DNA of 64,000 bases. Origin: Lachnospiraceae bacterium 10-1 (GTDB lineage Bacteria; Bacillota; Clostridia; Lachnospirales; Lachnospiraceae). The stretch covers positions 452,937-516,936 of the forward strand of contig KE159799.1 of NCBI GenBank assembly GCA_000403495.2, in the 5' to 3' direction. The translations under genes were made by a program, and so were the position numbers. Positions 25,799 to 42,783 of this stretch are shown piece after piece. Positions within the stretch are counted from its first letter, which is position 1. Every line of letters begins with the position of its first letter. Below the pieces are notes generated by a model that saw only the letters and a list, made by a program, of their open reading frames with translations, ran no database searches and was not told where the DNA came from.

Positions 25799-25842
25799 CT
25801 GAATTTACACTGAAGTTAACTTTCAACACATAGCATCTGAGC

Positions 25843-26124
25843 TTAATCCTCACTTGTGTTTTTAATTTTAACAGATTCTATTCCTCTAATCAGATCCGCA
25901 GCACGTTCCACATCTGCTTCATTAATTCGGATCGTAAAAATATTCTTTTGTTTGTCACTTCCAAAAGTTCTTGAAAACCAGGAACGTTCCTGCCATTCAA
26001 TAAAATAAGATATTCTGTTTTTCAACAATACCCTTTCCAGTTTCTCTTTACTTTCCAAAGTGTATACTTTACAAAAATCCACTTCTCTATTGACCACCCT
26101 ATTGTCAAAAGTCAATGATGTCAT
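25843..26124 (-). CDS. Small hypothetical protein
   Basis: A 93-residue protein starting MTSLTFDNRVVN at ATG 26124, behind GGAGG. A compact alpha/beta sequence resembling small ferredoxin-fold proteins that pair two strands and helices (VYTLESKEKLERVLLKN, TIRINEADVERAADLI). I do not recognise a named family; similar small genes are widespread in Lachnospiraceae. Whether it belongs to the phage-like element or the chromosome is open. Confidence 0.6.
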   Translation of the reverse strand: MTSLTFDNRVVNREVDFCKVYTLESKEKLERVLLKNRISYFIEWQERSWFSRTFGSDKQKNIFTIRINEADVERAADLIRGIESVKIKNTSED

Positions 26125-26257
26125 TGCACTATCCTCCACTCTTGAAAATAAACTATTATGATTATTTTCAATTTACTCCCCCATATCATGATAAACACTA
26201 TATATATTATAATTCATAATCCTTCATAATTTCAACTAGAAAATACCAGCATTGCTT

Positions 26258-26560
26258 TTAGATTGTGACCGTTGTCTTAGACAGTTCCCACAATGGTTTT
26301 TGATCCAAATATTGTTGATTTAACCACTCTGCTGCCTGAAAAACGCCTTCAGATGTAAAGTCAAATTCCCTGCGCTGCTTTTTTGCCTCTTCGGTTTTGG
26401 CATAGCATAAAGGTTCCGGCCAGATAATCACCTCAAGCCTTGCCCCTTCTTCTTTTTCTTTCTTCTTCAGCATATAGCGCATCCCATCCATGCTACCGCA
26501 GTATTCTTCTTTTTTTACATAGTTTAGTACATTGAATTTTTCTTTATCTATCATTGCCAC
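26258..26560 (-). CDS. Hypothetical protein
   Basis: A 100-residue protein (MAMIDKEKFNVLNYVKKEEY) with no membrane segment and no motif I recognise. It appears to be an alpha/beta protein with a WPEPLCY turn. It sits downstream of the DUF262 gene on the same strand and may be part of that unit. Intact reading frame. Confidence 0.55.
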   Translation of the reverse strand: MAMIDKEKFNVLNYVKKEEYCGSMDGMRYMLKKKEKEEGARLEVIIWPEPLCYAKTEEAKKQRREFDFTSEGVFQAAEWLNQQYLDQKPLWELSKTTVTI

Positions 26561-26598
26561 CCTCTGCTAACATATCATAGAAAAAGAATAACACATTT

Positions 26599-27993
26599 TC
26601 ACAACTTTGTAAGCAGAAACCTTTCAAATGCCTCCCTCATATATCTAAAATTCTTTTTCTGGTCCGGAAAATATGTATTATTCTTTTCTGCATACTCCGC
26701 AAGCCAATCATCCAAATCCTGATCTTCCTTATAAGAATAAACCACCATTGCAAGAAGGGAAAGCCTGTTTTGTTTATCTAACAGCTTCGAACCTAACTTT
26801 ATGGTTTTTTCCTCCAGGTCATTTAATGTCTCATGATAAAGGCTGATATCCTTCTCCAATGTTTCTTTATCTATTTCCAGAGTTTCAGTCAAAAATAATA
26901 TTTCATCAAAATTGTTCTTTTTGCCATTTGTTTTTTGCCTGTTATTATTTTTAGCACAAAGAAATTTCTCCATCAGGCAATTTAACATTTCCAGCTTTTC
27001 CGTAATGACAGCCTTGTCCTTTGTGCTTAAATCCCTGTCAATTTCATCAAACAAAAGTCCTTTTTCATTTCTTTCAGAAAGCCTCAGATCTTCTTTAAAT
27101 TTCCTCAAAAATTCAGCAAATCTCTGATCCTTGATTCCAAGGAACGTAAACTTGTCAAATAAGGCAAGAAAAAGAAACGCATCCTTTTTATTAAAAAGAC
27201 TTCTGATATCTTCTGTGACCACATGCTCTAATCTGTGCAGATTATCTGTCAGCTTATCAAACTCTTCCTTAGATGCATTTTCATTCAGATACCTGCAAAG
27301 GGCTTTGGGCTGCTTTTTCCACTTGTCCAAATGATTGGTACACATAATGGTATCAGTAATTACCCGCTCAATTACACCTTTTGTCTTTTCAGGTTCTGAA
27401 AAACTACTACAATCCAGAAAAAAACGACAGTTTAAAATTTCACGTATATTTCCAGCAAATTTATCAATATAAGTAAATGCCTTCTGATCTGTATTCATGG
27501 GTGTGTGGTTATTGTATCTTTTGATATATTTTGAAATCCTATGGCTGTCGCAATTTTCATGGATAATTGTTTCCAACTGATATTCATTAAATCTCTTTTT
27601 CAATTCTTCCGGAAGCTTTTCATAAGTTTTATTTTTAATGTCGAATACTGCATCCTCCCAGTCTATGCTTCCATCTTCCCTTTTTACTTTTTTCTTATAA
27701 AAAATAATAGAATCTTCAATGGCAGATGTAACCTTATAATTTCCATTACGAAAGCTGTTTAACGCCGCACTTCTACAGCCGCCATCCGTAATATGTAATT
27801 GTGAGCTGCTTTCCTCCCCTAAAATAATAGGCGGAATATATTCATCAGCAAGAACTGTTACAATCAGCTCATTAATCTGTTCTTTATTCCAGACAAAGTT
27901 CCTTTGAACATCTGCATTATTGTCAATATCTCCATCCTCTATTTTACTCAAATACATTTCCAATGTATAAATCTGCTTTCGTGGTCTTGCCAT
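26599..27993 (-). CDS. DUF262 (ParB/GmrS-like) domain protein
   Basis: About 464 residues starting MARPRKQIYTLEMYLSKIED at ATG 27993 (GGGAGG upstream). The N-terminal 200 residues are a DUF262 domain: NADVQRNFVWNKEQINELI, then IPPIILGEE and the ITDGGCRSAALNSF motif equivalent to the DGQQR active-site motif of ParB-fold NTPases, here DGGCR. The rest is helical. DUF262 proteins include phage-restriction enzymes and CTPase/NTPase regulators. It lies directly after the sigma factor gene in the same LexA-controlled unit, so a role in regulating or protecting the element is likely. The altered DGGCR motif could mean changed nucleotide chemistry. Confidence 0.8.
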   Translation of the reverse strand: MARPRKQIYTLEMYLSKIEDGDIDNNADVQRNFVWNKEQINELIVTVLADEYIPPIILGEESSSQLHITDGGCRSAALNSFRNGNYKVTSAIEDSIIFYKKKVKREDGSIDWEDAVFDIKNKTYEKLPEELKKRFNEYQLETIIHENCDSHRISKYIKRYNNHTPMNTDQKAFTYIDKFAGNIREILNCRFFLDCSSFSEPEKTKGVIERVITDTIMCTNHLDKWKKQPKALCRYLNENASKEEFDKLTDNLHRLEHVVTEDIRSLFNKKDAFLFLALFDKFTFLGIKDQRFAEFLRKFKEDLRLSERNEKGLLFDEIDRDLSTKDKAVITEKLEMLNCLMEKFLCAKNNNRQKTNGKKNNFDEILFLTETLEIDKETLEKDISLYHETLNDLEEKTIKLGSKLLDKQNRLSLLAMVVYSYKEDQDLDDWLAEYAEKNNTYFPDQKKNFRYMREAFERFLLTKL

Positions 27994-28012
27994 TTTTCTT
28001 CCTCCCTGCATC

Positions 28013-28570
28013 TTAAAGCAATACAGATATATTCCTGTAAGAACGGATTGCTGCATTACAATCTGCAAACTGCTTATTGCTGATCTGTAACTTTTCTTTT
28101 ATTTCAACAGGAGAATAACCTATCACCTCCAAATGCAGTATTTTTCTCTGAAGGAGGGAAAGCCTGCCAAGATAAAGCAGCATTCTTTTACTGTATCTTT
28201 CTCCCTGTTTTCTTATAATCTCCTGTTCCATATTAAATTCATCTGCAATTACATCTTTTAAAGTGGAATCCTCATCATCTCCAACAGGCGTGTCAATGGA
28301 AATAATGCATCTCTTTACTTTACGTTTTTCACGATTTCTTCTTGTCATCTCCGATTTTATTCTATTTGACAGGCATGCGTACAAAAATACATCAAATGAC
28401 TGAGAACGATCATACCGTTTTAATGCATCTGTAAACACCTCATTTGCAAGAGAGTAGAAATCATCTCTGTCCTTATCCGATATACCGCCAAACTTCCGTA
28501 ATATTCTGTCAACCACCTTATGAAGTTTTTCCCCATTGTCATTATAATAGTCTGCTAATATCTGTTCCAT
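28013..28570 (-). CDS. Sigma-70 family RNA polymerase sigma factor
   Basis: A 185-residue sigma factor with region 2 (DKDRDDFYSLANEVFTDALK, then FDVFLYACLSNRIKSEMTRRNR, residues about 32-80) and a region 4 helix-turn-helix (LSLLQRKILHLEVIGYSPVEIKEK and QISNKQFADCNAAIRS, about 135-180). No region 1 or anti-sigma is visible. It is the first gene after a LexA-boxed promoter and is divergent from the RNA polymerase homologue and tail genes, so it may switch on that rightward operon during DNA damage. Its ATG follows GAAAGG. Confidence 0.9.
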   Translation of the reverse strand: MEQILADYYNDNGEKLHKVVDRILRKFGGISDKDRDDFYSLANEVFTDALKRYDRSQSFDVFLYACLSNRIKSEMTRRNREKRKVKRCIISIDTPVGDDEDSTLKDVIADEFNMEQEIIRKQGERYSKRMLLYLGRLSLLQRKILHLEVIGYSPVEIKEKLQISNKQFADCNAAIRSYRNISVLL

Positions 28571-28606
28571 TTTTAATTACCTTTCTTTCCTTTGCTTGTA
28601 ATCATT

Positions 28607-28635
28607 AGTATAGAACATACGTTTGTGCTTGTCAA
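28607..28635 (-). promoter_or_regulatory. Promoter of the sigma-DUF262 unit
   Basis: Minus strand: perfect TTGACA (28630-28635), 17-nt spacer, TATACT (28607-28612). The first LexA-type box fills the spacer. Confidence 0.8.
28612..28625. promoter_or_regulatory. LexA/DinR-type SOS box 1
   Basis: AGAACATACGTTTG, close to the Firmicute consensus CGAAC-N4-GTTCG. It lies between the -35 and -10 elements of the sigma promoter, where bound LexA would block polymerase. Confidence 0.7.
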
Positions 28636-28644
28636 TATATTTTT

Positions 28645-28658
28645 CGAACGTTTGTTTG
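28645..28658. promoter_or_regulatory. LexA/DinR-type SOS box 2
   Basis: CGAACGTTTGTTTG, just upstream of the -35 element, 33 bp centre to centre from box 1 (about three helical turns), on the same face of the helix. Confidence 0.65.
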
Positions 28659-28801
28659 TTTGTAAATCTTTTTTCCCTTTTGGCAGTGCCGGAATTCTTC
28701 GTCCCCACGCTTCCGCTCCATAAAAGTAATTTTTGCTCACTCAAAAAACAAATGGAGAAATAGTAATTAGAGGGATATGAAAGGAGGAAGAGAAACAACA
28801 A

Positions 28802-28987
28802 ATGGATGTACCCATTACAGATCACACCACCTTTGGAGGGAAAATCTTTTTTACAGATTTTGACAGGAAAACTACATTAGCGGAAGTAGCGGAAAAAATT
28901 ATTTCCGACAGAAAATTTGACCAGCAATGCATAAAAAACATGGAAATCCGAAGGGAATGGAAAAAAACTTGTTGTGCGCAACAGTAA
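28802..28987 (+). CDS. Small hypothetical protein
   Basis: A 61-residue frame (MDVPITDHTTFGGKIFFTDF) with AAAGGAGG about 14 bases upstream. It is the first gene rightward of the divergent control region and leads into the RNA polymerase operon. Acidic first half, basic end. Function unknown. Confidence 0.5.
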   Translation: MDVPITDHTTFGGKIFFTDFDRKTTLAEVAEKIISDRKFDQQCIKNMEIRREWKKTCCAQQ

Positions 28988-29007
28988 ACGCAGAAAGGGA
29001 GGAAAAC

Positions 29008-29391
29008 ATGTATCAAATTATAAAAGAAGGCTATACCATCAGGATCAAGCTGCCGGCAAAATGCGGGCAGGAAGGTTATTCCGTAAAATGTACCTACAAA
29101 TATAAAAAGGCAAAAGAAAAATATATGCTTGCCCTATGGCTGAAACGGGATGATATTGAGGAGGATTTCAGAATTGACGCGCAGGAAATTGATGCCCAGC
29201 TGATTCCGGGAACAAGAGAAACCATTGAAAACAATATATTAAGAATCGTAAGGCATGCATATGAAACTGGTTATTTTGACCGTTATATCAAGCGGTTTGA
29301 ATATACCTGCAAGTGCTTTGAAAAAGGAAACGAACTGATTGAGCAGGAAATAGAAAACAAACGGGAAAGGGAGGCGGCTGACCATCAATAA
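29008..29391 (+). CDS. Hypothetical protein preceding the RNA polymerase homologue
   Basis: A 127-residue protein starting MYQIIKEGYTIRIKLPAKCG at ATG 29008, five bases after GGGAGG; the longer frame overlaps the previous gene without need. Beta-strand-rich first half, then a helical segment ending in a charged coil. I recognise no family. Its last codons overlap the probable start of the polymerase gene (translation coupling). Confidence 0.65.
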   Translation: MYQIIKEGYTIRIKLPAKCGQEGYSVKCTYKYKKAKEKYMLALWLKRDDIEEDFRIDAQEIDAQLIPGTRETIENNILRIVRHAYETGYFDRYIKRFEYTCKCFEKGNELIEQEIENKREREAADHQ

Positions 29392-32005
29392 TACGCAATA
29401 TACGCTTATAAAAATCCCCCTCAAAGATCTGATTTCAAAAAAATTTAATCTGTCAATTGATAAAGAAGCTGAGCTTCAAAAAGGTTATCTGATCACGCAG
29501 GAAAGCTCCCTGCTTCTTGATCAGATTGAGCGGCTTCGCGAAAAACCTTCCTTACATGTCAGTGAAATGATCCTTGTTGTGGCAAAAAAGAATCCCCGAC
29601 AGGAAAAGGAACTCCGCCACATTTTAAATAATGGTTTCTTCTATAATGGAGTCCATTATTCCAGATTCGGAAAATCCGCCTCACAGGCAAAGGAAGGAAT
29701 TACCGCTTTTGTGTGTGACACCATTTTTGATGAATTATATCAAATAACCCAGATGGATCTTCCGGTGAGGGAATGCGTAATTTCCAAATATGAAGCACAA
29801 AGATGCCTTTTATTTAGTTCCTGCACTTTGATACCTGACTATATGCCGAATATTGTTATTATCGGCGAATATGAAAAAATTCTCCCAAATCAACTGATCA
29901 AATTTGTTGTGGAAAGGGAAAAAGAATTTACCGATAAGGCTACGGGTAAAAAGAAGACATATCTGGCAAAGGAAATTGAAGAAGGTTATAAAGATTTAAC
30001 GCTGTCTTTCTTTGACGGATGCGGCTGCCACGAACAGGAATTCATGGAAAAGGTAAGCGGGCAATTAGGACTGGATTACAATGCAGCAGGCGTACAGATA
30101 CGTCTTCCCTTTATAAAAGGCTATTCTGTTTACGTTCCTTTCAGAAAGATACTAAAAGAATGGGGCTGTGAGTTTATCACAGACATTTATGGCACCAGAC
30201 ATCCCATTGACACCATTGACTGCATCTGGAACACCTCCATGTTTAAAGGCTGCAGGCTTTTTAAGGAAGCCTATGGCAGTAACGCATGGAAAGAATACCT
30301 GAACACCCTAAAAAAATACCATTTTAAATTAGGAATCAGTAAGTACAGTCATCACATCAAAGATAGAAACAAATACACCCGCATGAATTTTCAGTATCTG
30401 CAGTGCTTAGACCTTTGGAACCCCAAATATATTGAACATTTTCAGCAAAGGAAACCGGATAATTATGATATTCTGGACAGTAAAAATGATGGAAAAATCA
30501 TTCAGCTGGCCAGATACACCACCCAGCTTTATGAAAGAATTATCAAAGGCGAACCCTTTTATACTTACAAATTTATGGGAATTCATGATACCAACGGACA
30601 TGAACCGGAAAGCAAATATCTGGAGGCTGCGCTTATCAATGACGCCATGCTGAAAGATCCTGCCATCAAACAATTTATCTACAGAAAGCTGAAAAAAGCA
30701 ATTCATGAAGCAAAGGTGGGAAAAATCTACTGTTCCGGATTTTATCATACCGGCGTTGGAGATATGATCGGCTATCTGCAATATGCTGCCGGTCAAAAGC
30801 CTGTCGGATGTTTAAGGGAAGGGGAATTGTACAGCGGAAATTTTGCTCCCGGCACTGTTTTATCCTTCCGCTCTCCCTTAGTAGATCCTTCGGAGGTTAA
30901 TCGAATAAAGATCGTCCAAAATGATGTGCTTTTAAAATGGTTTGGGCACTTTAAGGATCAGGATATTGTTATGTTTAACATGTATGATGCCTCCCTCCCC
31001 CAACAGGGAGGGGCTGACTGCGATGGCGACATTTTTCTGCTGACAGACGATCCTGTTCTGACTGCTTCCAAAATTGAAAAACACATCATTCTTGATCTGG
31101 AAGATAAAATAACCATTTCTCCAAAGCCCTACACAAAAGCCAATCTTACGGAATACGAGCTTATGACAAGGGACAGCCGGATTGGTGAAATCACCAATGC
31201 CGCCACAAGCATTATAAACAAATACACTGCTGGCAGCGACATCCAGAAACTGTATTCCGATTTCACTTCGCTGCTTCGGGTTTTTCAGGGAAAAGAAATC
31301 GATTTTCTGAAAACCGGTTTCCGCTGGCACATGAATAATGGTCTTAAAAAGCATTTAGATCAGCTTCCTTTCTTTTTGCTTTACAATTATCCAGCAAAGC
31401 TAAAGAAATATAAAGCAATTATGGAGAAAAACAAACAACTAAAAAATGGAGAAGAAAAGTTAATTCCCAACGCCTACCACTCCCCTTCCCCTATGAATGA
31501 GCTTTGTGATTATATTTGCACATGGGAAAAGAAACATATTCTTTGGGAACATGACATTCATTCCCTGGATCACATCAAAAATTTAATTTTAAACAAAAAC
31601 ATAGCGCTCTCAGACAAAACTTCCCTGCGGATCTGCCGGAGGTTTATCAATCAATACGCCGCCCAATTAAAGGAACAGCTGGAAAAAGAATGCACTGCTG
31701 CAGAATCTTCCCTTTTTTTAGACGCTGTAGTGGAAGAATACAAAAAGCAGTTAAAATCGGTTCTGAACATGGAAGAGGAATTCATTGCCAACTATGTGAT
31801 CTGCGCTTCCTATGCTTCCGTATCCATCAGCAAGGCTTTTGCATGGGCTGCCTACGGCGATTATATCATTGAAAATCTGCAAAGCAACACTGCGTCAAAA
31901 GAAAATGTTTCTATCAGGGAAGTTCCCCGAAAAACAGAAACCTCCTATGAATATCTTGGAAAATATTATGAATTTAAGGCAGGTGATACCGATTTACCAA
32001 TGTGA
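29384..32005 (+). CDS. YonO/QDE-1-like single-polypeptide RNA polymerase
   Basis: A protein of 812 residues from the first ATG (29567), or about 874 if it begins near 29384. The catalytic double-psi barrel shows a region FRSPLVDPSEVNRIKIVQND, then QDIVMFNMYDASLPQQGGAD and the metal-binding motif DCDGD (residues 484-488 from ATG 29567), equal to the DbDGD of eukaryotic RNA-dependent RNA polymerases and of phage SP-beta YonO. This family shares its barrel with cellular RNA polymerase beta-prime. It probably transcribes the element's own genes. No ribosome site stands before ATG 29567, while AAAGGGAGG lies nine bases before an in-frame ATC at 29384 with no stop between, so a non-AUG start (ATC, or CTG at 29378) is likely. 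Confidence 0.8.
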   Translation: MNNTQYTLIKIPLKDLISKKFNLSIDKEAELQKGYLITQESSLLLDQIERLREKPSLHVSEMILVVAKKNPRQEKELRHILNNGFFYNGVHYSRFGKSASQAKEGITAFVCDTIFDELYQITQMDLPVRECVISKYEAQRCLLFSSCTLIPDYMPNIVIIGEYEKILPNQLIKFVVEREKEFTDKATGKKKTYLAKEIEEGYKDLTLSFFDGCGCHEQEFMEKVSGQLGLDYNAAGVQIRLPFIKGYSVYVPFRKILKEWGCEFITDIYGTRHPIDTIDCIWNTSMFKGCRLFKEAYGSNAWKEYLNTLKKYHFKLGISKYSHHIKDRNKYTRMNFQYLQCLDLWNPKYIEHFQQRKPDNYDILDSKNDGKIIQLARYTTQLYERIIKGEPFYTYKFMGIHDTNGHEPESKYLEAALINDAMLKDPAIKQFIYRKLKKAIHEAKVGKIYCSGFYHTGVGDMIGYLQYAAGQKPVGCLREGELYSGNFAPGTVLSFRSPLVDPSEVNRIKIVQNDVLLKWFGHFKDQDIVMFNMYDASLPQQGGADCDGDIFLLTDDPVLTASKIEKHIILDLEDKITISPKPYTKANLTEYELMTRDSRIGEITNAATSIINKYTAGSDIQKLYSDFTSLLRVFQGKEIDFLKTGFRWHMNNGLKKHLDQLPFFLLYNYPAKLKKYKAIMEKNKQLKNGEEKLIPNAYHSPSPMNELCDYICTWEKKHILWEHDIHSLDHIKNLILNKNIALSDKTSLRICRRFINQYAAQLKEQLEKECTAAESSLFLDAVVEEYKKQLKSVLNMEEEFIANYVICASYASVSISKAFAWAAYGDYIIENLQSNTASKENVSIREVPRKTETSYEYLGKYYEFKAGDTDLPM

Positions 32006-32867
32006 CGAAATGTTTCTTTATGAAATAATTGAAGATTACAAGCAGGCAGAATCATCAGCAGAAAAGGATGAAATTTTTCACGCCTTCTGCACACTTCTCT
32101 GGTCTTCCGCCAATCAAAGAAGAACCTGCAGAAAGTCCATCCGTTTCCAGATTCCGGATCACCTTCTTTCCACAAGACTTGGACAAGTTTTTCTCACCTG
32201 GTCGGACGTGGAATATAACCATTACAAATCCATGACCAAAAAGGAAGACTGGTGTTCTATCATCCGGCAGAAAGTCAATAACCTTTACACCAGATATTTT
32301 GATCAGGAAGTAATTTTAAACAAAGAATACATGGATCTGCTAAAAACACCAAAACGGTTATTTTATCAGTGGATCTCAGGAATTGACATGGACGCTGACC
32401 TTGTGACGGAAATGATTGATGATGCAATTGCCCGTTCTGAAAAGGTAAAAAAGAAACTTCAGGCGGAAAAAATGGTTTTATCCTGGGCGGAATATAAAAA
32501 AGTGATCGAAGGGTTTTTAAGAAAGTCCTTAGAATGCTGCAGGCTGATCGAAGAATATGAGAACAAGAATAAAATAATTACCGACCTGGATTTTCTGACG
32601 GAAGATCATTTCTATATTGGATACATCTGCAAACGGCTGGAAGGAAATATGAAGGATTATCAAAAAGCCTATTACGGATTAAAGTCCGGTTCCCGAAAAG
32701 GATATACCCGCTGCAAGCTATGCGGTGCCCTGATTGAAAAAACAGGAAACAAGCGGATGTATTGCAGAAAATGTGCTCTTATAAGAAAAAAGGAATCCAA
32801 CAAAAAATCAGACCAGTCCTACAAAATAAAGCTGCGAGAAAATAAAAATCTTTTATTTCCCCTGTGA
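31968..32867 (+). CDS. Zinc-ribbon protein linked to the polymerase gene
   Basis: About 299 residues starting MNLRQVIPIYQCDEMFLYEI at ATG 31968, overlapping the polymerase gene by 38 bases. Mostly helical, with a C-terminal zinc ribbon CKLCGALIEKTGNKRMYCRKC and a basic tail. Cys-x2-Cys pairs like this serve nucleic-acid or polymerase contacts, so it may be an accessory factor for the polymerase; this is inferred from coupling alone. Family not recognised. Confidence 0.65.
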   Translation: MNLRQVIPIYQCDEMFLYEIIEDYKQAESSAEKDEIFHAFCTLLWSSANQRRTCRKSIRFQIPDHLLSTRLGQVFLTWSDVEYNHYKSMTKKEDWCSIIRQKVNNLYTRYFDQEVILNKEYMDLLKTPKRLFYQWISGIDMDADLVTEMIDDAIARSEKVKKKLQAEKMVLSWAEYKKVIEGFLRKSLECCRLIEEYENKNKIITDLDFLTEDHFYIGYICKRLEGNMKDYQKAYYGLKSGSRKGYTRCKLCGALIEKTGNKRMYCRKCALIRKKESNKKSDQSYKIKLRENKNLLFPL

Positions 32868-32962
32868 AATCAAACAAAACCGCTGTTTTTTTGCAGCTAT
32901 ATATCAAATATGGAAATCAAAGAAGTTCTAAGGTAAAACAAGCGCAAAAAGAGGCAAAATAT

Positions 32963-33778
32963 ATGAATATAACTTTTAGCAAGGCATTTTTAATGTCAGG
33001 GGAAGATTTTAAACTTACCTCCTCTATCACCCTGCATCACCCCACAATAAAAGAGATTTTATCCATCAGCCAGTCCTCCTCTCCGGATCTGATTTATTGG
33101 AGCTACATCCAAATTCTGCTGGCTGATCCCTATCTGAATATGGTGATGCTGGATGATATGGGAAAAAATTATTTAGAAACCTCCCCCTATGAGGTTTTTC
33201 ATCTCCAATGGGATAACTGCATTGCAAATTATGAGGAAAACAAAGCAGAATATGACGCTTACCAGATTCATCCCGGGGATCAAATCACAGATGCCCTTCA
33301 GTTCTTTATGGTGGAAACACATCATTTTAAAAAAGGATTCTATCAGGATGGAAGTCCCTGCTTCTATGACGAGGCCGATCCTTCCTGCCAGATTAATCAG
33401 GAAATCTTTGAATACATTTATCAGTGGGTAAAAGCAGTCAACAAAATTGACCACTCAGGCAGAATCCATCCTGCCGATGAAAATGCAAGACGTGTTCTCA
33501 TTGAAGATATGCGGGAAGAAATCAAAAAAGCAAAAAGACGGAAGAAAAAGAAGGAGGAGGACTTTGACCTTTTAGGAAGTCTGATGGCTGCCGGCTGCTT
33601 TTGCGGCAATGGTTCTATTTCCCCCTTTCAAATAGGTGACTGCAAAATTTACTGGCTAAATGAAGCCCTTTCCCTCAATAACAGGAAAGATTACGCCAAT
33701 CACCTGCTGGACGGTATTTATCACGGAACACTCCGTTTTAAGGACATTAATAAAAAAGAATTAGACTGGTTGAAATGA
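32963..33778 (+). CDS. Tail-assembly-like protein
   Basis: About 271 residues starting MNITFSKAFLMSGEDFKLTS at ATG 32963; the longer frame begins with GTG and lacks a ribosome site. The segment LHHPTIKEILSISQSS with DPYLNMVMLDDMG resembles (from memory) short proteins encoded before tape-measure genes in Clostridial phages, thought to be tail assembly or chaperone proteins. C-terminal basic cluster KKAKRRKKKKEEDF. The expected role is chaperoning the tape measure; no frameshift site was found. Confidence 0.5.
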   Translation: MNITFSKAFLMSGEDFKLTSSITLHHPTIKEILSISQSSSPDLIYWSYIQILLADPYLNMVMLDDMGKNYLETSPYEVFHLQWDNCIANYEENKAEYDAYQIHPGDQITDALQFFMVETHHFKKGFYQDGSPCFYDEADPSCQINQEIFEYIYQWVKAVNKIDHSGRIHPADENARRVLIEDMREEIKKAKRRKKKKEEDFDLLGSLMAAGCFCGNGSISPFQIGDCKIYWLNEALSLNNRKDYANHLLDGIYHGTLRFKDINKKELDWLK

Positions 33779-33797
33779 TTGGTCTTTTCTTATAAAA

Positions 33798-33974
33798 AAC
33801 AAGGAGGATAAATCCTCCCCTCGCCAAAGAGGCTCGGATTTTCCTTCGGAAAACAAGGAGGTTAAATCCTCTCCTCGCCAAGGGGCTCGGATTTTCCTTC
33901 GGAAAACAAGGAGGTTAAATCCTCTCCTCGCCAAGGGGCTCGGATTTTCCTTCGGAAAACAAGGAGGATTAAAA
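33798..33974 (+). repeat. Three tandem 53-54 bp SD-hairpin repeats in the leader of the major tail-like gene
   Basis: Units begin at 33801, 33855 and 33908, with a fourth partial unit AAGGAGGATT at 33961 that is the real ribosome site of the next gene. Each unit has an SD sequence AAGGAGG folded against a complementary TCCTCC (GGAGGAT-AA-ATCCTCC in the first) and a second small stem with a TTCG-type turn. Copies 2 and 3 are identical. This is unusual as a translation leader and may buffer 30S subunits or protect the transcript of a highly expressed gene. Confidence 0.8.
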
Positions 33975-34778
33975 ATGAAGTACGCATTCAAAAAAGTAAG
34001 GAGAATCATCATCAATGATTCCGCAACAAAAAAGCATAAGGTAACCTTAAACGACTTAAAGAATTTTAAGATTGTAGGCTCACAGGAAACCGTATATGCA
34101 GAGGGGCAGGACGGTGCAAAGCTTGCAGCCTTTGACGTAAATAAAGTTGCAAGCATTACAGCCGAAAACGGTTCTGTAGATGAAGGTTATCTGGCCCTGC
34201 AGGTAGGCTCCGAAGTTGTAAAGGTAACAAACGGTTCCGCCATCTTAATCAGAGAAGAATTTGAAGTAAAGAGCGGAGAAAATACCATTACATTGTCTTA
34301 CAAGGCTGCGGGAGCTGCCGGCAATGAAGTAAGGTACCTCTACAAAGCAGATTCCAACGGGCTTCCTGGTGATGCTTATACACAGAATGCAGCAGCATCT
34401 GCAAAAGAATTTGCCTATGCGCCGGAAATAAAAACAATCACTCTGCCTACAGATGCCTTTGCAGCAGGCGATACCGTGATCGTGGACTACTATCCTGTGT
34501 TCTCTGAATACGAGGAAATTTCCAATGACGCAAACAAGTTCAGCATGGCTGGAGAAGTAATCGTAGATGCATGGTTTACCGACCTTTGCACTGAAGTAGA
34601 CGTACCCTTACAGTTATACCTGCCAAAGGGCAAAATTTCCGGAACCATTGATTTGTCCGCAGGCGATCAGGCTGCTGTTCAGGGAATCGAAATTGAATCC
34701 CTTACAAAGGCATGTGCAGGCGACGGCAAAAATCTCTGGACGCTTAGAAAATACGACATGGCCAACGCTGAAAGCTAA
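33975..34778 (+). CDS. Probable major structural (tail tube-like) protein
   Basis: A 267-residue protein starting MKYAFKKVRRIIINDSATKK, with AAGGAGG seven bases upstream. Beta-rich, acidic and repeat-free, with paired strands such as LQVGSEVVKVTNGSAILIRE and GDTVIVDYYPVFSEYEEISN, the look of a phage tail tube or tail surface protein. It sits between the tail-assembly-like gene and the holin/tape measure, has the strongest ribosome site and its own terminator, all consistent with a very abundant virion protein. Capsid identity cannot be excluded from sequence alone. Confidence 0.6.
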   Translation: MKYAFKKVRRIIINDSATKKHKVTLNDLKNFKIVGSQETVYAEGQDGAKLAAFDVNKVASITAENGSVDEGYLALQVGSEVVKVTNGSAILIREEFEVKSGENTITLSYKAAGAAGNEVRYLYKADSNGLPGDAYTQNAAASAKEFAYAPEIKTITLPTDAFAAGDTVIVDYYPVFSEYEEISNDANKFSMAGEVIVDAWFTDLCTEVDVPLQLYLPKGKISGTIDLSAGDQAAVQGIEIESLTKACAGDGKNLWTLRKYDMANAES

Positions 34779-34833
34779 ATCAGCAAATGCAATGGGAAAT
34801 ACGCACTGCGTACTCTCATTACAAATCAATCCG

Positions 34834-34858
34834 GGGCGGCTTATGCCGCCCTTTTTTT
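34834..34858 (+). terminator. Strong rho-independent terminator
   Basis: GGGCGGC-TTAT-GCCGCCC stem followed by TTTTTTT, right after the major structural gene; partial read-through would set the ratio to downstream genes. Confidence 0.9.
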
Positions 34859-34873
34859 ATGAGGTGAAATGTT

Positions 34874-35038
34874 TTGAACAAACCAAATACCGTATGCCGG
34901 GTTTGCGGCAAAGAGTACTTCTGCTGTCTGGACAGTAAGCGGATCAGCTCCTGGCGCGCAATGACCTGCTCTCCTGAATGTTTTCAGGAATATATGGCAC
35001 GTCTACAAAAAGCCAGAACCCAAATCATTTCCGATTAG
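34874..35038 (+). CDS. 54-residue zinc-finger-like protein
   Basis: Start TTG at 34874, seven bases after GAGGTG. The sequence has two Cys pairs, VCRVCG near the start and TCSPEC later, enough for a small zinc knuckle, with a basic C-terminus. Many phages carry such peptides; function unknown. The next gene's ribosome site AGGAGG overlaps its stop codon. Confidence 0.55.
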   Translation: MNKPNTVCRVCGKEYFCCLDSKRISSWRAMTCSPECFQEYMARLQKARTQIISD

Positions 35039-35052
35039 GAGGTGCATATTAT

Positions 35053-35472
35053 ATGAATGAAATGATGGAAATTTCAGAAGTGATTAACTATATATTATAT
35101 ATTATTTTAACTGCAGTTCTTCCGGTCGTTGCCGCTTATGCGGTCAGCCTGATCAAAGCCAAAATCATTGAAAGCGGCCTGATTGCCGATGCTGCCAAAA
35201 ATGAAGTGATTGGACAAATCATTGAAAGTGCCTTATCTGACGTAATGGATGCTGTCCTCTATGTCAATCAGGTCTACACTGACTCCCTTAAGGCAAGCGG
35301 ACGCTTTGATGAAGCTGCACAGAAAGAAGCCTTCAACCGGGCTTATGTAGAAGCCATCAATCTGATCTCCGATCAGGCCAAAAAGACAATTGAGCAGTTA
35401 TATGGTTCTTTCGACAAATGGTTAAAGCTGAAAATAGAAGCTGCTGTAAGTTCAGTTAAAAAAACTAATTAA
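35053..35472 (+). CDS. LLH-type phage holin
   Basis: A 139-residue protein starting MNEMMEISEVINYILYIILT at 35053. One N-terminal membrane helix (about residues 8-30) followed by a charged amphipathic helix and a C-terminal helical domain, the form of phage holin LL-H family proteins. It should permit lysozyme escape through the membrane. It precedes the GH25 lysozyme, forming a lysis pair. Confidence 0.8.
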   Translation: MNEMMEISEVINYILYIILTAVLPVVAAYAVSLIKAKIIESGLIADAAKNEVIGQIIESALSDVMDAVLYVNQVYTDSLKASGRFDEAAQKEAFNRAYVEAINLISDQAKKTIEQLYGSFDKWLKLKIEAAVSSVKKTN

Positions 35473-35529
35473 TATAACATGGGCCTGTATCTGCCAGGTT
35501 ACAGCTCATATAAGAAAGGTGTGAATCTA

Positions 35530-36177
35530 ATGTCTGACAAAAATATACTCACAAATAAATGTGTGGACGTAAGCTCTTATCAGGGCAATATCAACTGGGA
35601 ACAGGTAAAGTCAGCAGGCGTTCATCAGGCAATCCTTAAAATAATCCGGAAAGACTTAAACCCTGATACCAAATTTGAACAAAACTGGAAAGGCTGTCAG
35701 GATGCGGGTGTCACTGTATCCGGTGTATACAATTATTCTTATGCTGCTTCAACTGCAAAAGCCATAACAGACGCCAAAAAAGTTCTTTCTGTTTTAAATG
35801 GAAGAAAATGCATGGTATGGCTTGATGTGGAAGATAAATGCCAGAAGGGACTCGGCCCGCTGCTAAAAGATATCATCCACGCATACAGCGACGTAATCAC
35901 AGACGCCGGATACCCCTTCGGTGTCTACACAGGGATGTCCTTTTATCAATCTTACCTGAAACCTTATCCTATAAAATGTGATACTTACTGGATTGCAAGA
36001 TATTATAATTCTTACAGGAAAATGGATATTTCTATCAGTCCCAATGAAAAATATAATCCCAGGCTAAACATAGGCAGAGATATTTATGCATGGCAGTACA
36101 CCTCAAGCGGCCAGCTTTCCGGCATTACCGGTAATGTGGACTTAAGTATTATTTATGGCGGTATAGCCAATGGATGA
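35530..36177 (+). CDS. GH25 family lysozyme (endolysin)
   Basis: A 215-residue single-domain GH25 muramidase starting MSDKNILTNKCVDVSSYQGN at ATG 35530 (AAAGG upstream). Catalytic region: VDVSSYQGNINWEQVK near the start and the acidic pair in MVWLDVEDK, with YPFGVYTGMSFYQSYL and YAWQYTSSGQLSGITGNVDL later. No signal peptide and no cell-wall binding domain, so it depends on the holin. It hydrolyses the MurNAc-GlcNAc bond. It overlaps the next gene by 8 bases. Confidence 0.93.
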   Translation: MSDKNILTNKCVDVSSYQGNINWEQVKSAGVHQAILKIIRKDLNPDTKFEQNWKGCQDAGVTVSGVYNYSYAASTAKAITDAKKVLSVLNGRKCMVWLDVEDKCQKGLGPLLKDIIHAYSDVITDAGYPFGVYTGMSFYQSYLKPYPIKCDTYWIARYYNSYRKMDISISPNEKYNPRLNIGRDIYAWQYTSSGQLSGITGNVDLSIIYGGIANG

Positions 36178-36628
36178 TATCCTTGCATTATCCAAAGTAG
36201 ATTTTTCCTCCGTATTTATTTCCGTTTTTCTCATTCTCATGGGAATAAAGGCGGCGGTTTCTTTGCTGGAATGGATGATAAATAAGCTTGGGCTGGAAAC
36301 AAAATGGATGAGAAAACACCGGCAGGAGCATGAGCTTCTGCTGCAGACTGCGCAAAACCTGGCTGCTTTACAAAAAAAATACGAAGAAAACATGCAGCTT
36401 GACAACCTGATGGCTGCCCAAAGAGAAATACTGGCAGACAAGATAAATGAAAAGTACAAATTCTATATCTCCATCAAAGGCATTCCTGATGATGAAGTGG
36501 ACGAATTTACCAATCTGCATGCAGCATACAAAGGTGTTGGCGGAAACCACAGCGGAGATGTGAAATTTGAATACTGCATTAATCATCTGCCTGTTATTCC
36601 GGTTGAAACAAAATTAGTCATAGAATAA
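36170..36628 (+). CDS. Membrane-anchored phage protein
   Basis: A 152-residue protein with a membrane helix at about residues 14-33 (FISVFLILMGIKAAVSLLEW), a coiled coil (about 45-95) and a small C-terminal domain. The start codon overlaps the end of the lysozyme gene. It may be a lysis regulator or a tail accessory protein; I do not recognise the family. Confidence 0.6.
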   Translation: MDDILALSKVDFSSVFISVFLILMGIKAAVSLLEWMINKLGLETKWMRKHRQEHELLLQTAQNLAALQKKYEENMQLDNLMAAQREILADKINEKYKFYISIKGIPDDEVDEFTNLHAAYKGVGGNHSGDVKFEYCINHLPVIPVETKLVIE

Positions 36629-36688
36629 GAGGATTGATTTTGCCTCACCTTTTACAAAAATCAGCATGGAAAGGATGGTTTATAATCT

Positions 36689-37047
36689 ATGGACAAATAT
36701 GACATGGAAATCCAGGCTGCTGTCAATCTGCCCAGCCGCCAAACCATTAATAAACAAATACTTGATCTGGAGAAAAAAATTAACAAGCTGAAAATCAGCG
36801 GAACCCTTGACGATGCTGCCATAAAGAAACTGACCGACCAGTTAAAGTCTTTAAAAGCAACCGTCACCACCATTGACTTTTCTCCTTCTGCCCTGCAAAG
36901 CCTCACCAGCCAGGTGGAAAAAGCCCTGAGTTCTGTCAACGTCTCCGATGCAGGCACCAAAAAGGCAGACAGCTTTCTGGCAAGTTTCGGAAAGCAGATC
37001 ACCACAAAAATCTCTGATTATGTTAAGAACATCGGTAAATGCCGTAT
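36689..37047 (+). CDS. Tape-measure protein, 5' exon (interrupted by a group I intron)
   Basis: The frame begins MDKYDMEIQAAVNLPSRQTI and continues as a helical, Lys/Leu-rich coiled coil (LDLEKKINKLKISGTLDDAA) as in the N-termini of tape-measure proteins. It would read through to a stop at 37064, but the RNA fold places a 5' splice site after 37047, inside an Ile codon, so this is the first exon (119 codons plus two bases). The gene's continuation is taken to be the coding region from 38609, although the joint could not be established. Confidence 0.6.
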
Positions 37048-37610
37048 CAGCGTACGGATTTCATAAACTGTTTTTTGTTTTGAATATGCCCTTCATGCCC
37101 AAGCAATTCCTGATCGACGAACTGCAAGGGCAGGAATGTATGAACTTAGTCAACTCATGATGTTCTATAAAGTGAATCGTAATTGAGGAATGCTGTTTCC
37201 TCAGTGCTGGGAAGCTTTTTTATAGTGAATAAATAGTGCCGCATGGCTACAACGTGACTGGAAACGGTGAGCGTGATATGCACTCCGAAAGGATGTCAGC
37301 AATGGCAAAAAAATATGCGGCAGGTCATATGTGGAAACGCTAAATGACAGGTCTTGTGGAAGAGACTAAACCACCAATCAGCAGCGGAAATCCTAAGTCT
37401 GGTCATTCAGATATGGACGTGTTCAGAGAGTATAAACGATTCTGAGTCGAAAGGCTTGTAACAGGTACTCCAAACCAAGAAGGAAAACTTGCTCGTGACT
37501 GAGTAGAAACCAAAAGAGTGATACTGCTCTCCTGCTTCTTACACAGCTCTGCCTGCGCAGGAAGAAACAGGATAATGCTACGGAATTCTCCTGGCCGGAG
37601 TGGAAAAAAC
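37048..37610 (+). ncRNA. Group I self-splicing intron (core)
   Basis: The catalytic core can be drawn by eye. P1: CCGTAT (37042-37047) with GTACGG (37052-37057), ending in the diagnostic U-G pair. P3: GAATCGT (37174-37180) with ACGATTC (37436-37442). P4: TTGAGG (37183-37188) with CC-aa-TCAG (37374-37381). P6: TCC/GGA (37391-37417), containing CCTAAGTC and ATATGGA as in the Tetrahymena intron. P7: GAGTA (37428-37432, within GTTCAGAGAGTA) with TACTC (37466-37470). P8: GAGTC-GAAA-GGCTT (37444-37457). P5 is expanded by about 180 nt. More stems follow (P9-like). The 3' splice site was not found. Confidence 0.85.
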
Positions 37611-37743
37611 GGAGAAAATAGAAAGAAATTTCTAAACTAAATATTCATATTTTTATAGTATTTTTAAATATTTTACAGTATAATAAAAATAATAGTTTTT
37701 AAATTACAAGTGCACTCAATATAACAAGAAAGAACAAACGTTT

Positions 37744-38511
37744 ATGGAAAATACTGATGAACAAGAAATTGAGAAAGACCAAGATACCATTTCTGAAAAA
37801 GTCGCTCATATAACTGGCCGATATAATATTATATCGGCAATCATTGGAGCAATTGTTGGCGGTTTTTTTACTCTTGTCTGTACTCATATTAGCATAACAA
37901 ACACCAACCTCTCATACAACTCCTTACAAGAAGAGTACGCTGTTTTAACAGAGGAATATCTTGCTTTAAAAGAAGAAAATAATAAATTACATAATGAAAT
38001 CAAAGATTTAAATACTGAAGTTACTCAACTATCTATAGCTAAGGAAAACACTAACGAAATGCAGCCAATCGATAATAAAAGTGTATTTGATCTACCTGCT
38101 ATTAATAGCAAAGAAAAGTATTGGTTTGATCATTCAGATCAATATCCTCCTGAGTGTTTTATTGATACTGATGGTATTGAACATTATACAGGTACTATAT
38201 GTTTTCATTATGGAAGTAATAAAAACAACATTTTAAATCCCACCTACCAACTTGATGATGCTTATTCTGAGTGCGTTGGAGAAATGGTATGTTCTTCTGT
38301 AAATGGAGATTCTCAGGAAAAAGCATGGTTGGAATTCTATTCAGGTGATCAATTTCTTGGCAGCACAGATCCTATAGATATTAATAGTGGTTCAAAACCA
38401 TTTACTATTGATATTAAAGGTGTTAAAGAACTGACAATTGTAAGAAATGGAACTGAGTCTGACTATGGATACTTCACCATCATTTATGATTATTTGAATT
38501 TAGTTAAATAA
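37744..38511 (+). CDS. Membrane-tethered protein with coiled coil and NPCBM-like domain
   Basis: A 255-residue protein starting MENTDEQEIEKDQDTISEKV. Cytoplasmic N-terminus, one membrane helix (about residues 30-50, IISAIIGAIVGGFFTLVCTH), an extracellular coiled coil (58-95), then a C-terminal beta domain (GTICFHYGSNKNNI, AWLEFYSGDQFLGS, FTIDIKGVKELTIVRNG) like the NPCBM carbohydrate-binding fold. It lies between the intron core and the second part of the tape-measure gene, in an AT-rich setting. It has no homing-endonuclease motif, so if it is intron-borne it is atypical; otherwise it is a separate insertion. Confidence 0.6.
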   Translation: MENTDEQEIEKDQDTISEKVAHITGRYNIISAIIGAIVGGFFTLVCTHISITNTNLSYNSLQEEYAVLTEEYLALKEENNKLHNEIKDLNTEVTQLSIAKENTNEMQPIDNKSVFDLPAINSKEKYWFDHSDQYPPECFIDTDGIEHYTGTICFHYGSNKNNILNPTYQLDDAYSECVGEMVCSSVNGDSQEKAWLEFYSGDQFLGSTDPIDINSGSKPFTIDIKGVKELTIVRNGTESDYGYFTIIYDYLNLVK

Positions 38512-41500
38512 TGTTTAAAAACAGTACTCATTTCCATCTGAACTAGATAAATAAGTATTTCCATAAATCAAATGTCTCCAATATATTCATTGCCTTTCTT
38601 CACAAGCTATGAAATGTAATCCTCCACAGATTACAAACATTAATCATATGATATTCAAAACATTTGACAGCAAAAAAAAAACTCCTGAATCAACAAATGA
38701 TTTTTCAATTCCTGAAATAGATGCCAGTGATATTTTAAGTGAAATACCTACACCCCAAAAAATACTTACTCAAATTGGCAAAAAAATACTCCAAGCAGTT
38801 GGAGCTGTAGTTAACATGTTTGTTACATGGGCACTTAACAAAGTGATTGATAAAGCTATTGCCGCCCTTGATAACTACATACACAGGCTTGATAAAGCAA
38901 AAGAAGCTTTATCCAATACTCAATCTGAAATATCATCTATTGAAACAGAAATTAAGAGCTTAAATGATAAAATAAAAGAATTGGAAAATCGTGATCCAGC
39001 TTCCCTATCGATTATTAACAAAGAAGACTTACAAAACCTCAAAGCACAAAACGAAGAACTAAAAATACGCCAACAATATCTAAATCAGGAAAAAAACGAT
39101 GATCAACAGAAAGTTGCCAATTTGACCAAAGAAAAATACAACCAGCAATATGGCACTTCAAATCAGGAATTAATTGAACAGTATAAATCTCTCTACGAAA
39201 ATCAACCAGGTCCAAGTAAACCCGTTTCCTCTTACTTAACAGGTGAAAACACCACTCAGACTATATCATATGCTGCTTCCAGCCAGGATACCGGATTAAT
39301 CCGTGGTTCAGGGGTGTTAGCTGACCTTATAGCACAATACGAATACTATTCGGATTTAAAAAAAGAGGCCATTGGAAATGATGACTCTGAATCTATTGAA
39401 AAATATAATAATAAACTGAAAGAATTGTCACAAAAGCTTCAAGAAGATAGAAAGAATCTTCAAGAATTTGCTGACGATTTATTAGCCGCGGGAGACGCAA
39501 GTCCTGAATTAGACAATATTACTTTACAACTTGAAACAATTGACAATCTTCTATTAGCACCAAAGCAGAACCTTATTGAATTTATTAATAACGATTCTTT
39601 ATCAGAATCAAAGCAGCACTTAATTGATCTTATAAATACTGGCAGCTTAACCCAAAATGAACTATTAACACATTTCCCAGAAATTAATAACTATTTAAAA
39701 GAAAATGGACTTACCTTAGAAGACTTAATTTTAACTGTTAAATTATACAAAGAAGAACTATCTGACAATTCAAATGCAAATTTCCCACTCTCTTCTTCAA
39801 AAACAATAAGCAATCTTAATGCGCAAATTAAGCCTGCATTCGACAGCCTGAAATCAACATGGCAAAACCTCTTTACGGACAATGAACTTAATATAAATAG
39901 TGTAGACATCCTATCTACCTGCGATTCAATCAAAGCAAAACTTGATGATATGTCAGAAATGGGCTTACAAGTCGATTATTCTGCATATGAGCATTTTATT
40001 GATATACTAAATGATTCAGATTCAGAAGCTGCTGATGTCCAAGACAGTTTCAATCAGCTTGCTATTTCTATCCTGCAAGCCGGAGTATCTGGAACGGAAG
40101 ATTTTGAAACTTTAAAATCTGCCTTAGAAGATCTTGGTGTAGTAAATGAAGAACTGGTAGCTTTTGACGCTTTAATAAGTAATACAGAGATATTAAAAAA
40201 GTCAGGATTAGATTTAAATTCTGCTACAGAAGAACAGATTGCCTCTTTTGCAAATGAAATGGTATCTGCCGAAAATGTTGCACAAGCTATTTTAATGCTG
40301 ACCTTCCAAAAGGAATTATGCAATCTACAAGGCATGAATACTTCTGGTGAAGTTGCCAACCTGCTTACGCTTGCTGAAAATGCAGCCTATACAGGTGAAA
40401 TCATTAAAAACTTAACAGAATTAGAGGGAGTCTATCAGGAAATTGCTAGCGGTACTTTAACTCCCGGCCAACTAGATGCCAAACTGGCAAGAGCTGCAGA
40501 ACTGGAAAATGCAATAAAAGAATCAGCAGGTAATATTAAATATGAGCCGCAAATTAATTTTAACAGTATGGGCGGTGCTGCCTCCCATGCAGCAGGTGCC
40601 GGAAAATCCGCCGCCGCAAGCTACATAGAAGCCTTCGAGGAAGAGTTATCTGACTTATCCCAGCTTCGCGACAATGGAGTTATTACTGAAAAGGAATACC
40701 TGGACAGTCTCTGCGCGCTTTATGAGAGATATTTTGCAAACAAGCTGGGGTATGAGAAGGAATATGCCAAATACCAACGGCAATACCTGGAAGGCTATAA
40801 ATCGCTTTACGAATCCGCCCTCAGCGGCATTTCCACGCTGCTGGGTAATCAGATTGACGGTTACAAGGATGCCAAAGATGCCGCTGTCTCCTCTCTCACT
40901 CAGGAAAAGGATGCCCGTCTTGAAGTAATTGACGCCCAGAAGGAACAGCTAGAGGCACAAAAAGATCTGATTGACGAGCAGATCGAAGCAAAACAAAAGC
41001 TCATAGATGATATTCAAAATGAAATTGATGCTATGAAAGAAGCCAATTCTGAACGCCAGCGTCAGTTGGATTTGCAAAAAGCACAGTACGAGCTGGAACG
41101 GATGCAGCACCAGCGCACAATCCTTCAATACAGTGAAGAAAATGGAATGCAGTATGTGCAAAGTGATGAAGGACTGCGGACAGCAAAAGAAAACGTTGAC
41201 AATGCAAAATTTGAAATTGAAATTTCCAATAAGGAAAAAAATATCTCCCTGCTGGAAGATGAAATCAGTCTGTTAGAAGAGCAAAAGGATGCCATTCAAA
41301 ATCAAATGGACCTTCTCGACAAGCAGGCGGATCAGATTGAAAGCTACTATTCAAAAATGATTTCTGAAACAGAAGCTTACTATGATTCTCTAATCAATAA
41401 CATGGAACGCCAGAAATCAAAATGGGAAGAAATAGCTGAAATTGAAAACATTGCAAGAGCATATTCCGACTTAGAACAGGTTGCAGGCGGCATGGGCTAC

Positions 41501-42739
41501 AGCGTCCAGGATATCTTAAGCGGCAATGAACAGGCTTTTGAAGATTTTAAGTCCAGGTACATTGCTCTGCTAAGCGACCTAAACAATAATTCCAGTTTTT
41601 CAGAAGGATTATCTTATGCCACATCAGGTATTGCCCAAGACATTGACAACCTGGAAGCTTCTGCTGCCACCGTCAGCGAAAGCACAGGCAAAATAGCCGC
41701 CAACATCGGGGAAGTTAACACCAGCGCAGAAACCCTAAGCGGCAGTCTGTCCAATATTGGCGACGCCCTCTCCGGCTTTTCTGAGACGGACAATATCACT
41801 GCCGCCGCAGACGCCTTTTCTAAATTGGGGCAGGCAATCCAATCTGTAGCAGATGCACTGAACATAAGCGAAGACGGTACCATAGGCAGTCTCACAGGCG
41901 CACTTAAGTCTTTATGCGAAATACCCCTTTGCCAAACGGATGATGATAAAAATGGCGGTATTCTGTCTAAATTTCAGGCATTAAAGACTGCTGTCACTGA
42001 CGTAACAAGCGCCATTTCCGGCGGTGGTTCCTCCGCCTCAGACAGTGGTGACGGGGGAAATTCCTCAAGTCCAGGTACAAGCTCCGGTGCAGCCGGAAAC
42101 AGTTCTGGCGGACTGGCAGGCGCCATTGCCTCCCTGAAATCCGCCGCCACTGATGCATTAGGCGGCAATGGAAATGATGAATCAGAAGGACAAAGCGAAG
42201 GCTCCGGCATTATCGCCCAGTTTGGCCAGCTTAAAAATGCAGTAACCGATACCACGGAAGCCATCGGCAGCGGCGACTCAAAACAGAAGAAAAAATCTAA
42301 AGGAAACTCAAAAAATGGAAATCTGATCAGTTCCATCACAAGTCTTGGAAGCACCACCTCAGAAATTCTTACCGGCGACGGTAATGATGAAGATAAATCA
42401 GGCGGCGTAATTGGGCGGTTTGAACAGTTTAAGGATGTCATCGGTGAAGCCAATGAACATGTAACAGGAATTGCCACAGGGTTACACGATATTGATGGCG
42501 AAACTGTAGAATGCACCATCAAAGTAAATGTTGAACAAAATGGAGAGCTGCCTGCCTATTCCAAAGGCGTCCTGGCTCCCATGAAGTTGGAAAGCGGTGA
42601 ATATAAGGCAAAATATGGACGTGCATTTGCAAAGGGATCCGGAAATTACAAAGGACTTCCCAAATCAGAGAAAAATGCGCTTCGCTCTGAATATGGCCAG
42701 CCAGAATTAACCGTATATCCTGACGGAACTACAGAACTC

Positions 42740-42783
42740 ACCACACAACCTACCATCACCCCTCAGAATGAAAAAGAGAAAAC
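42740..42783. other. Probable left attachment junction of prophage 2
   Basis: Tape-measure coding similarity stops at about 42,765-42,775 and the terminator of prophage 2 begins at 42,784. The core repeat cannot be named because the right junction lies beyond the window. Confidence 0.5.

Follow-up and report, generated by a model that had tools for sequence, protein, structure and literature searches.

YonO-like RNA polymerases are found in the main genomes of bacteria, where their job is so far not known, and the locus described here raises the question of what such an enzyme may do when tail genes follow it and head genes do not. The locus lies in a 64,000-nucleotide stretch of the genome of Lachnospiraceae bacterium 10-1, hereafter the window, and positions are counted from its first letter and continue past its end (Table 1). 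A reading of the letters made without database searches, the sequence-only reading, had described a pair of sigma factor and DUF262 genes diverging from an operon for a YonO/QDE-1-like polymerase, a zinc-ribbon protein and then tail and lysis genes; this arrangement was borne out, for the divergent pair by Pfam and PHROG profile matches. We consider it likely that the locus is a chromosomal tail-only island resembling the F-type tailocins and induced by the SOS response through a cascade from LexA to the sigma factor to the YonO-type polymerase. A tailocin-like cascade of this kind would supply a job for the polymerases of bacterial main genomes.

The window polymerase, of at least 812 amino acids (aa), matches PF05183 (6.5e-16, best over residues 366-647) and phrog_8308 (3.6e-59), and SPBc2 yonO covers 93% of the query at 21.8% identity (3e-11), the homology to YonO and PF05183 extending over much of its length. 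Residues D484, D486, G487 and D488 are invariant in 10 polymerases (that of the window and nine relatives) and correspond to the metal-binding DxDGD motif. No match at 0.001 was obtained when the polymerase profile was searched against the PDB sequences. Judged by its sequence, the protein belongs to the YonO-like single-subunit family, and RNA synthesis on the late genes is its predicted role. Upstream of the ATG at 29567 the reading frame continues open, with homologous-looking sequence and no ATG, GTG or TTG; a non-standard start codon is therefore probable, and a start at this ATG needs correction.

One structural gene of the cassette lies at 33975-34778. A 27-row profile of its protein matches solved tail tube chains (8k98, 3.3e-12; 9jgh, 3.6e-12), and the AlphaFold2 model (predicted local distance difference test, pLDDT, 89) matches the SPR tail tube 8ygm (1e-13, Foldseek). 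A capsid reading of the same gene, suggested by PHROG 2729 with its label 'head and packaging', was ruled out by the tube matches in both sequence and fold; on the evidence of profile and model, the product is a tail tube and not a capsid protein. We call the long frame that starts at 38609 a tape measure because of its length and position and because long proteins of relatives are homologous to it: identity is 54% over 330 residues with the one in the island of genome G012 and 23-39% with parts of others. The island holds the siphophage-type tube, tape measure (in the window by homology), hub and fibres of an F-type tailocin, together with a lysis cassette of holin and GH25 lysin. No match to the contractile sheath family PF04984 was found in the host's own genome, and the matches seen in 10 of 13 relatives all lie away from the islands; the smallest distance is 38 kb, to the island polymerase in G290.

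The tape-measure frame enters a separate prophage, prophage 2, near 42760, and a tape-measure-like C-terminal frame, a reading without profile match, resumes at 83878; both junctions share the seven bases CCCTCAG. The right end given by the sequence-only reading, 42783, is near the end of the shared core at 42760. The first gene of prophage 2, at 43079, is endolysin-like, and a reading of it as a recombinase was rejected; the large serine recombinase closes the prophage at its far end. When the sequence was rejoined across prophage 2, a test set beforehand, the far side (83878-90687) was found to hold the end of the tape measure, an 85-aa protein and hub-like and fibre-like genes, and no head gene was recognised there, so that this test did not refute the headless reading. 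Three proteins within 84658-88636 match genes of Enterocloster phage PMBT24, two of which are annotated there as baseplate hub proteins.

We searched 85 kb of the host's own genome for relatives of the terminase, portal and capsid proteins of the YonO-phage lineage and found none, with the HMMER filters on or off. Terminase matches in the genome lie at 66761-67384, within prophage 2, and on a different contig. A weak match to a head-labelled profile (phrog_2163, 0.0031) occurs in the fibre-like gene at 88596-89234, and in G004 three head-labelled matches of fibre-like proteins rank below stronger tail or unknown matches. The PHROG scan left aside four small frames (26258-26554, 28577-28825, 83958-84335 and 89338-89667), three of which gave no phage-family match against Pfam or NCBIfam. 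Profile searches recognised no capsid, portal or terminase in the island, and the stretch from polymerase to tape measure is free of them as the sequence-only reading had stated, its head-labelled PHROG being that of the tail tube. A complete SPbeta-like prophage is not what we see: there is no head module between polymerase and tube, no large terminase subunit (TerL) and no portal.

The same order recurs in other genomes. We called a locus headless when the tube lay at most 9 kb from the polymerase and the flank held no TerL. Profile hidden Markov models (HMMs) run on 61 records, some of which represent one place (e.g., L077 and G020), found the tube in 45 and TerL in 16, all on the headed side; headless regions remained without TerL, some of them reaching 40 kb and more downstream of the polymerase. 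The zinc-ribbon protein follows the polymerase in headed and headless elements alike, with HMM matches in 57 of the 61. The 45 polymerase loci from GTDB divide into 29 headless (including the truncated L071 and close kin, e.g., L070 and L072), three headed by the rule, one (L043) headed from its longer sequence (G016) and 12 left open, mostly as they are cut by contig ends. In L054 (G005), a 5 kb insertion with a 558-aa open reading frame (ORF) separates the zinc ribbon from g085, the gene directly upstream of the tube, and the island is otherwise collinear. In [Clostridium] asparagiforme DSM 15981 (L046/G001) a long tape-measure-like ORF runs unbroken through the fetched sequence.

Of 298 genomes drawn evenly from the host's family, each at least 90% complete, 31 carried a YonO-like polymerase. 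We examined 25 of these, the six left out having little downstream sequence, and 19 were headless, two of them also counted among the 29 from GTDB. The 19 comprise the window, L044 and L059 (taken as G204 and G110 on the same contig coordinates), five others and eleven more, among the last G154 with g085 only and G305, whose polymerase was found with filters off. G171 (locus L176) is a headed phage with TerL and portal, and G315, G126, G132, G242 and G122 have the polymerase with neither tube nor TerL within the fetched DNA of up to 20 kb. Under default HMMER filters the polymerases of L174, L177 and L183 escape detection; without the filters all 18 family loci yield one, and neither the terminase nor the portal results change. 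Of 14 whole genomes searched, 13 lack the SPbeta-type portal family. G290 has a headless island and, 1.8 Mb away, a cluster of an SPbeta-type portal, a terminase match and a second, weak polymerase match.

Two observations concern the polymerases themselves. The genes of L070, L072, L012, L013, L073 and L021 are broken at two recurrent sites, around residues 483 and 575 in window numbering, the former at the catalytic motif; an Rfam intron search of five loci, four of them with an interrupted polymerase (L012, L070, L021 and L013), found none. Distant YonO-like polymerases with frames of ~975-1160 aa occur in L169, L170, L171, L174, L175 and L177, all from the host's family, with no tail context in the fetched DNA, and possibly belong to another system.

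Upstream of the polymerase operon, the matches of the sigma factor to Sigma70_r2 (3.5e-5) and sigma70-ECF (2.8e-9) are both below the curated cut-offs. In L008 and L053, which are near copies, sigma factor and DUF262 protein are fused as one 587-aa ORF, and given this fusion the DUF262 protein is likely to tune the sigma factor. The sigma-proximal one of two LexA-like boxes in the window sits between TTGACA and TATACT. Between sigma factor and polymerase, 22 of the 23 sigma-carrying loci have one or more GAAC-N4-GTT[CT] boxes, and the TTGACA/TATA-T layout towards the sigma factor with a LexA-like box in the spacer was found in 17 of 19 (the box of L048 being imperfect), a count that leaves out the close kin L008, L068 and L072 and the boxless L074. 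In 10 shuffles of the promoter set, the best dyad reached 3-5 loci, against 17 of 19 in the real one. There are 55 copies of the full GAACN4GTTC in 160 kb lying upstream of the polymerase versus 18 in 1100 kb elsewhere, with kin that are not independent among these. In the host's genome, the recA match has two like boxes 40-75 bases upstream and the lexA match one, 159 bases upstream.

Plain pattern counts in the window are at chance (23 versus 17.7 expected for the LexA-like pattern and 2 versus 1.5 for a second one, neither of the two at the sigma factor), and an argument for LexA control from such counts was rejected as not significant. Genome-wide, the loose box pattern gave 44 matches versus 87 for a reversed control; since the box is no commoner than the control, it is position that matters and not number. 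The case for LexA at the sigma gene, where the sequence-only reading had placed a LexA box, therefore rests on position, conservation in relatives and the like boxes at recA and lexA. With a box that overlaps the promoter and has the same form as at recA and lexA, the sigma operon is a putative member of the LexA (SOS) regulon. Some headless loci without a detected sigma factor carry boxes upstream of the polymerase or between it and g085. Words shared between loci were considered as a sigma-dependent promoter and rejected, as they are mostly polymerase coding sequence. Within the tail operon, GAACAAACGTTT at 37732 overlaps the start of the gene at 37744, possibly by chance.

The closest known model for such an operon is SPbeta, in which 37 genes including structural and lysis genes require YonO (PMC5467207). 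The island resembles SPbeta in the family of the polymerase, its position upstream of structural genes and the SPbeta/SPR-type tube, and in SPbeta, too, lysis genes belong to the late set (PMC5467207). SPbeta, however, is a complete phage in which terminase, portal and other virion genes lie downstream of yonO, whereas the island lacks terminase and portal, has a zinc ribbon after the polymerase and is preceded by the LexA-boxed sigma-DUF262 operon. Terminase and portal lie between polymerase and tube in SPbeta (its tube inferred from the SPR match), Thomasclavelia phage TR-TP1 and PMBT24, and an environmental phage contig (L011, L042) has its g085 and tube homologues ~17 kb past the polymerase, with TerL and portal between; the window tube begins 2 kb after the polymerase. 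TR-TP1 and PMBT24 are like the island in that the polymerase precedes the late genes, but each carries TerL and portal (in PMBT24 a major capsid protein is annotated as well), and their polymerases are 24-28% identical to that of the window.

F-type tailocins carry lysis genes, and to our knowledge none has a dedicated RNA polymerase. The island is like them in its predicted headless tail of siphophage type; it differs in that its tube gives only a weak fold match to that of monocin (0.04). Listeria monocin, F-pyocin and rhizoviticin are described as headless siphophage-type tails (PMC10811719, PMC10538166). Clostridial headless tails made under SOS conditions are also described for the R-type tailocins of C. 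difficile (diffocins) and solvent clostridia (PMC6088184, PMC10538166); R-type tails are contractile, whereas the host's genome has no sheath match. For the solvent clostridia, a review names 'RNA polymerase' and 'sigma factor' among the regulatory-module genes of R-type tailocins, with no further detail (PMC10538166). Among the matches listed from the open-licence PMC literature, no tail element with a YonO-like polymerase is described. What would be new relative to the known F-type tailocins is the dedicated RNA polymerase cascade, and we treat membership among the tailocins as provisional.

The polymerase tree bears on how the islands arose. Headed and headless labels need eight changes on it, at least six of them forced by starred branches, and shuffled labels need a mean of 9.0, with 120-138 of 500 shuffles giving as few. 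The tree holds 48 unjoined rows, 11 of them unlabelled; 13 loci with fewer than 600 positions in one frame were dropped, five distant rows and two copies were removed by hand, and the headed label of L009 stands for a homologue of the gene before TerL and not TerL itself. A single clade of headless elements is unsupported by this tree. As the labels interleave, headless islands would have arisen several times or trade polymerases with phages; the tree speaks against one ancient domestication, though not against a function.

Taken as an SOS-induced tail island, the locus might work as follows. LexA would hold the sigma-DUF262 promoter through the box within the -35/-10 spacer, whose sequence and conservation are observed and from which we infer binding. 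DNA damage would let the sigma factor, probably tuned by DUF262, accumulate and the host RNA polymerase transcribe the divergent operon that includes the YonO-type polymerase. By analogy with YonO and the SPbeta late genes, the single-subunit enzyme, probably with its zinc-ribbon neighbour, would then transcribe the tube, tape-measure, hub, fibre and lysis genes. Non-contractile tails would assemble, be released by the holin and GH25 lysin and most likely kill related bacteria. The sequence-only reading had suggested two things, a tail-like particle that has a transcription system of its own and its possible production under DNA damage. The former finds support in the 85 kb without head genes of the lineage, the recurrent compact order and purifying selection in one pair, and the latter in the LexA-like boxes within the sigma promoter. 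Its other suggestion, a 'deeply reduced phage', is partly correct as regards origin, since phages of the SPbeta/YonO type have the same kind of polymerase, tube and gene order.

This origin also invites the view that the cassette is the functionless remnant of a decaying YonO-type prophage with its head genes deleted. We find that quite improbable given the compact order in 29 of 45 GTDB loci (L071 included) and 19 of 25 examined family genomes, the conserved SOS promoter and the purifying selection on 13 of 13 island genes tested (dN/dS, the ratio of nonsynonymous to synonymous substitution rates, 0.04-0.17) in the sole pair tested, G004/G005; a remnant would nevertheless explain the derivation of order and proteins from SPbeta/YonO-type phages, the splitting of the host's tape measure by prophage 2, the truncated look of L071/G018, the apparent rearrangement in L063/G008 and the interleaving on the tree. 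Headed and headless loci with similar polymerases are neighbours on that tree and genes may move between them, which, along with an integrase with its own SOS-type box at 91153-92172, would suit a satellite or split phage that makes tails, borrows the heads of a helper phage and spreads its own DNA. Yet the 14 island proteins of L008/G004 searched against PHROGs gave no integrase, terminase or replication gene (and one weak exonuclease-profile match, 0.0018), the island has lysis genes, and its neighbourhood points to resident inheritance: the two species G004 and G005 have left-hand neighbour genes in common, and a neighbouring 98-aa gene family is common to the window, G018 and L076, G018 also sharing the neighbouring methyltransferase of the window. 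A satellite is in our view very improbable. Rather unlikely, finally, is a tail particle with a job other than bacteriocin killing, such as release coupled to lysis or delivery into other cells: the gene set of holin, lysin, tube, tape measure, hub and fibres fits the known tailocin plan, and the scans made turned up no recognisable cargo gene, even though the genes 3' of the tape measure vary between islands and several of the open frames have no family match.

Several findings weigh against the preferred reading of an SOS-induced, tailocin-like island. The boxes of the window are imperfect and end in GTTT, which is weaker than GTTC; L074 has a sigma factor and no box; and a sigma factor was detected in 17 of the 29 headless loci from GTDB and in 8 of 15 from the family, with some contigs ending near the polymerase. 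No sigma-dependent promoter or target motif was found for the polymerase operon. The fold search with the g085 model (mean pLDDT 84) gave no match to a solved structure, and the tape measure itself matches a profile only weakly (phrog_5218, 1.3e-5). Its gene is moreover split by prophage 2, so that intact tails would need excision of the latter. The TerL, portal and capsid models represent the YonO-phage lineage only and miss the terminase of prophage 2 that another family finds. To these we add the interleaving of headed and headless loci on the tree.

Beyond this host, we lean towards the view that many Lachnospiraceae and some other Firmicutes carry a tail-only weapon run by a dedicated YonO-type polymerase with a LexA-controlled, DUF262-coupled sigma factor as its switch, that headless tails are the main job of the 'chromosomal' YonO-like polymerases there, and that the headless form arose from headed YonO phages, or swapped polymerases with them, several times. 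In 19 of the 25 family genomes, the polymerase stands ahead of tail genes, no head gene is detectable and SOS boxes are often present, and the question thereby becomes directly testable. If the view is true, it is not rare for gut Lachnospiraceae to carry tailocin-like elements that bring an RNA polymerase of their own, and the set of polymerase, zinc ribbon, sigma factor and DUF262 protein is a compact new system of transcription that can be studied and put to use.

Table 1. Features of the tail island and of the DNA around it, in window positions
Feature	Position	Strand	Evidence or remark
Window	contig KE159799.1 452,937-516,936, 64,000 nucleotides		genome 4.57 Mb
DUF262/GmrSD_N-domain protein	26599-28068	-	PF03235 7.3e-9
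Sigma-70 factor, SigH/ECF-like, 185 aa	28013-28570	-	Sigma70_r2 3.5e-5, sigma70-ECF 2.8e-9; homologues in relatives
Sigma promoter with two LexA-like boxes	28605-28660	-	boxes 28613 GAACATACGTTT, 28646 GAACGTTTGTTT
154-aa protein, opens rightward operon	28927-29391	+	homologues in some relatives
YonO/QDE-1-type single-subunit RNA polymerase	29378-32005, first ATG 29567	+	PF05183, phrog_8308
Zinc-ribbon protein	31812-32867, true start probably near 31983-32010	+	two CxxC pairs
g085 (phrog_4051), directly 5' of tail tube	32864-33778	+	confident model
Tail tube, SPbeta/SPR type	33975-34778	+	sequence profile and predicted fold
Holin	34978-35472	+	phrog_13712 4.5e-28
GH25 endolysin	35479-36177	+	PF01183 7.1e-27, phrog_291
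152-aa phrog_4105 protein	36170-36628	+	recurs in relatives
125-aa coiled-coil-like cassette protein	36689-37066	+	
255-aa coiled-coil-like cassette protein	37744-38511	+	
Tape measure, N-terminal part, interrupted by prophage 2	38609 to ~42760	+	
Prophage 2, separate from tail island	42760 to ~83878 (past window end)		serine recombinase 82275-83855

The DNA around the island holds further features. Within prophage 2, a reverse transcriptase gene (46622-47665, minus strand) lies beside an RT-2 RNA (47834-48112), possibly as a diversity-generating or defence retroelement. The tyrosine integrase just past the island (91153-92172) has a perfect GAACATTTGTTC box directly upstream (feature span to 92220; L031:11153-12220), and beyond it follow a Rep_OBD protein and a second integrase-like gene, perhaps of another mobile element. 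At the other end of the window, a DUF3800-XI RNA motif (4250-4297) adjoins a 226-aa ORF at 3524-4204.

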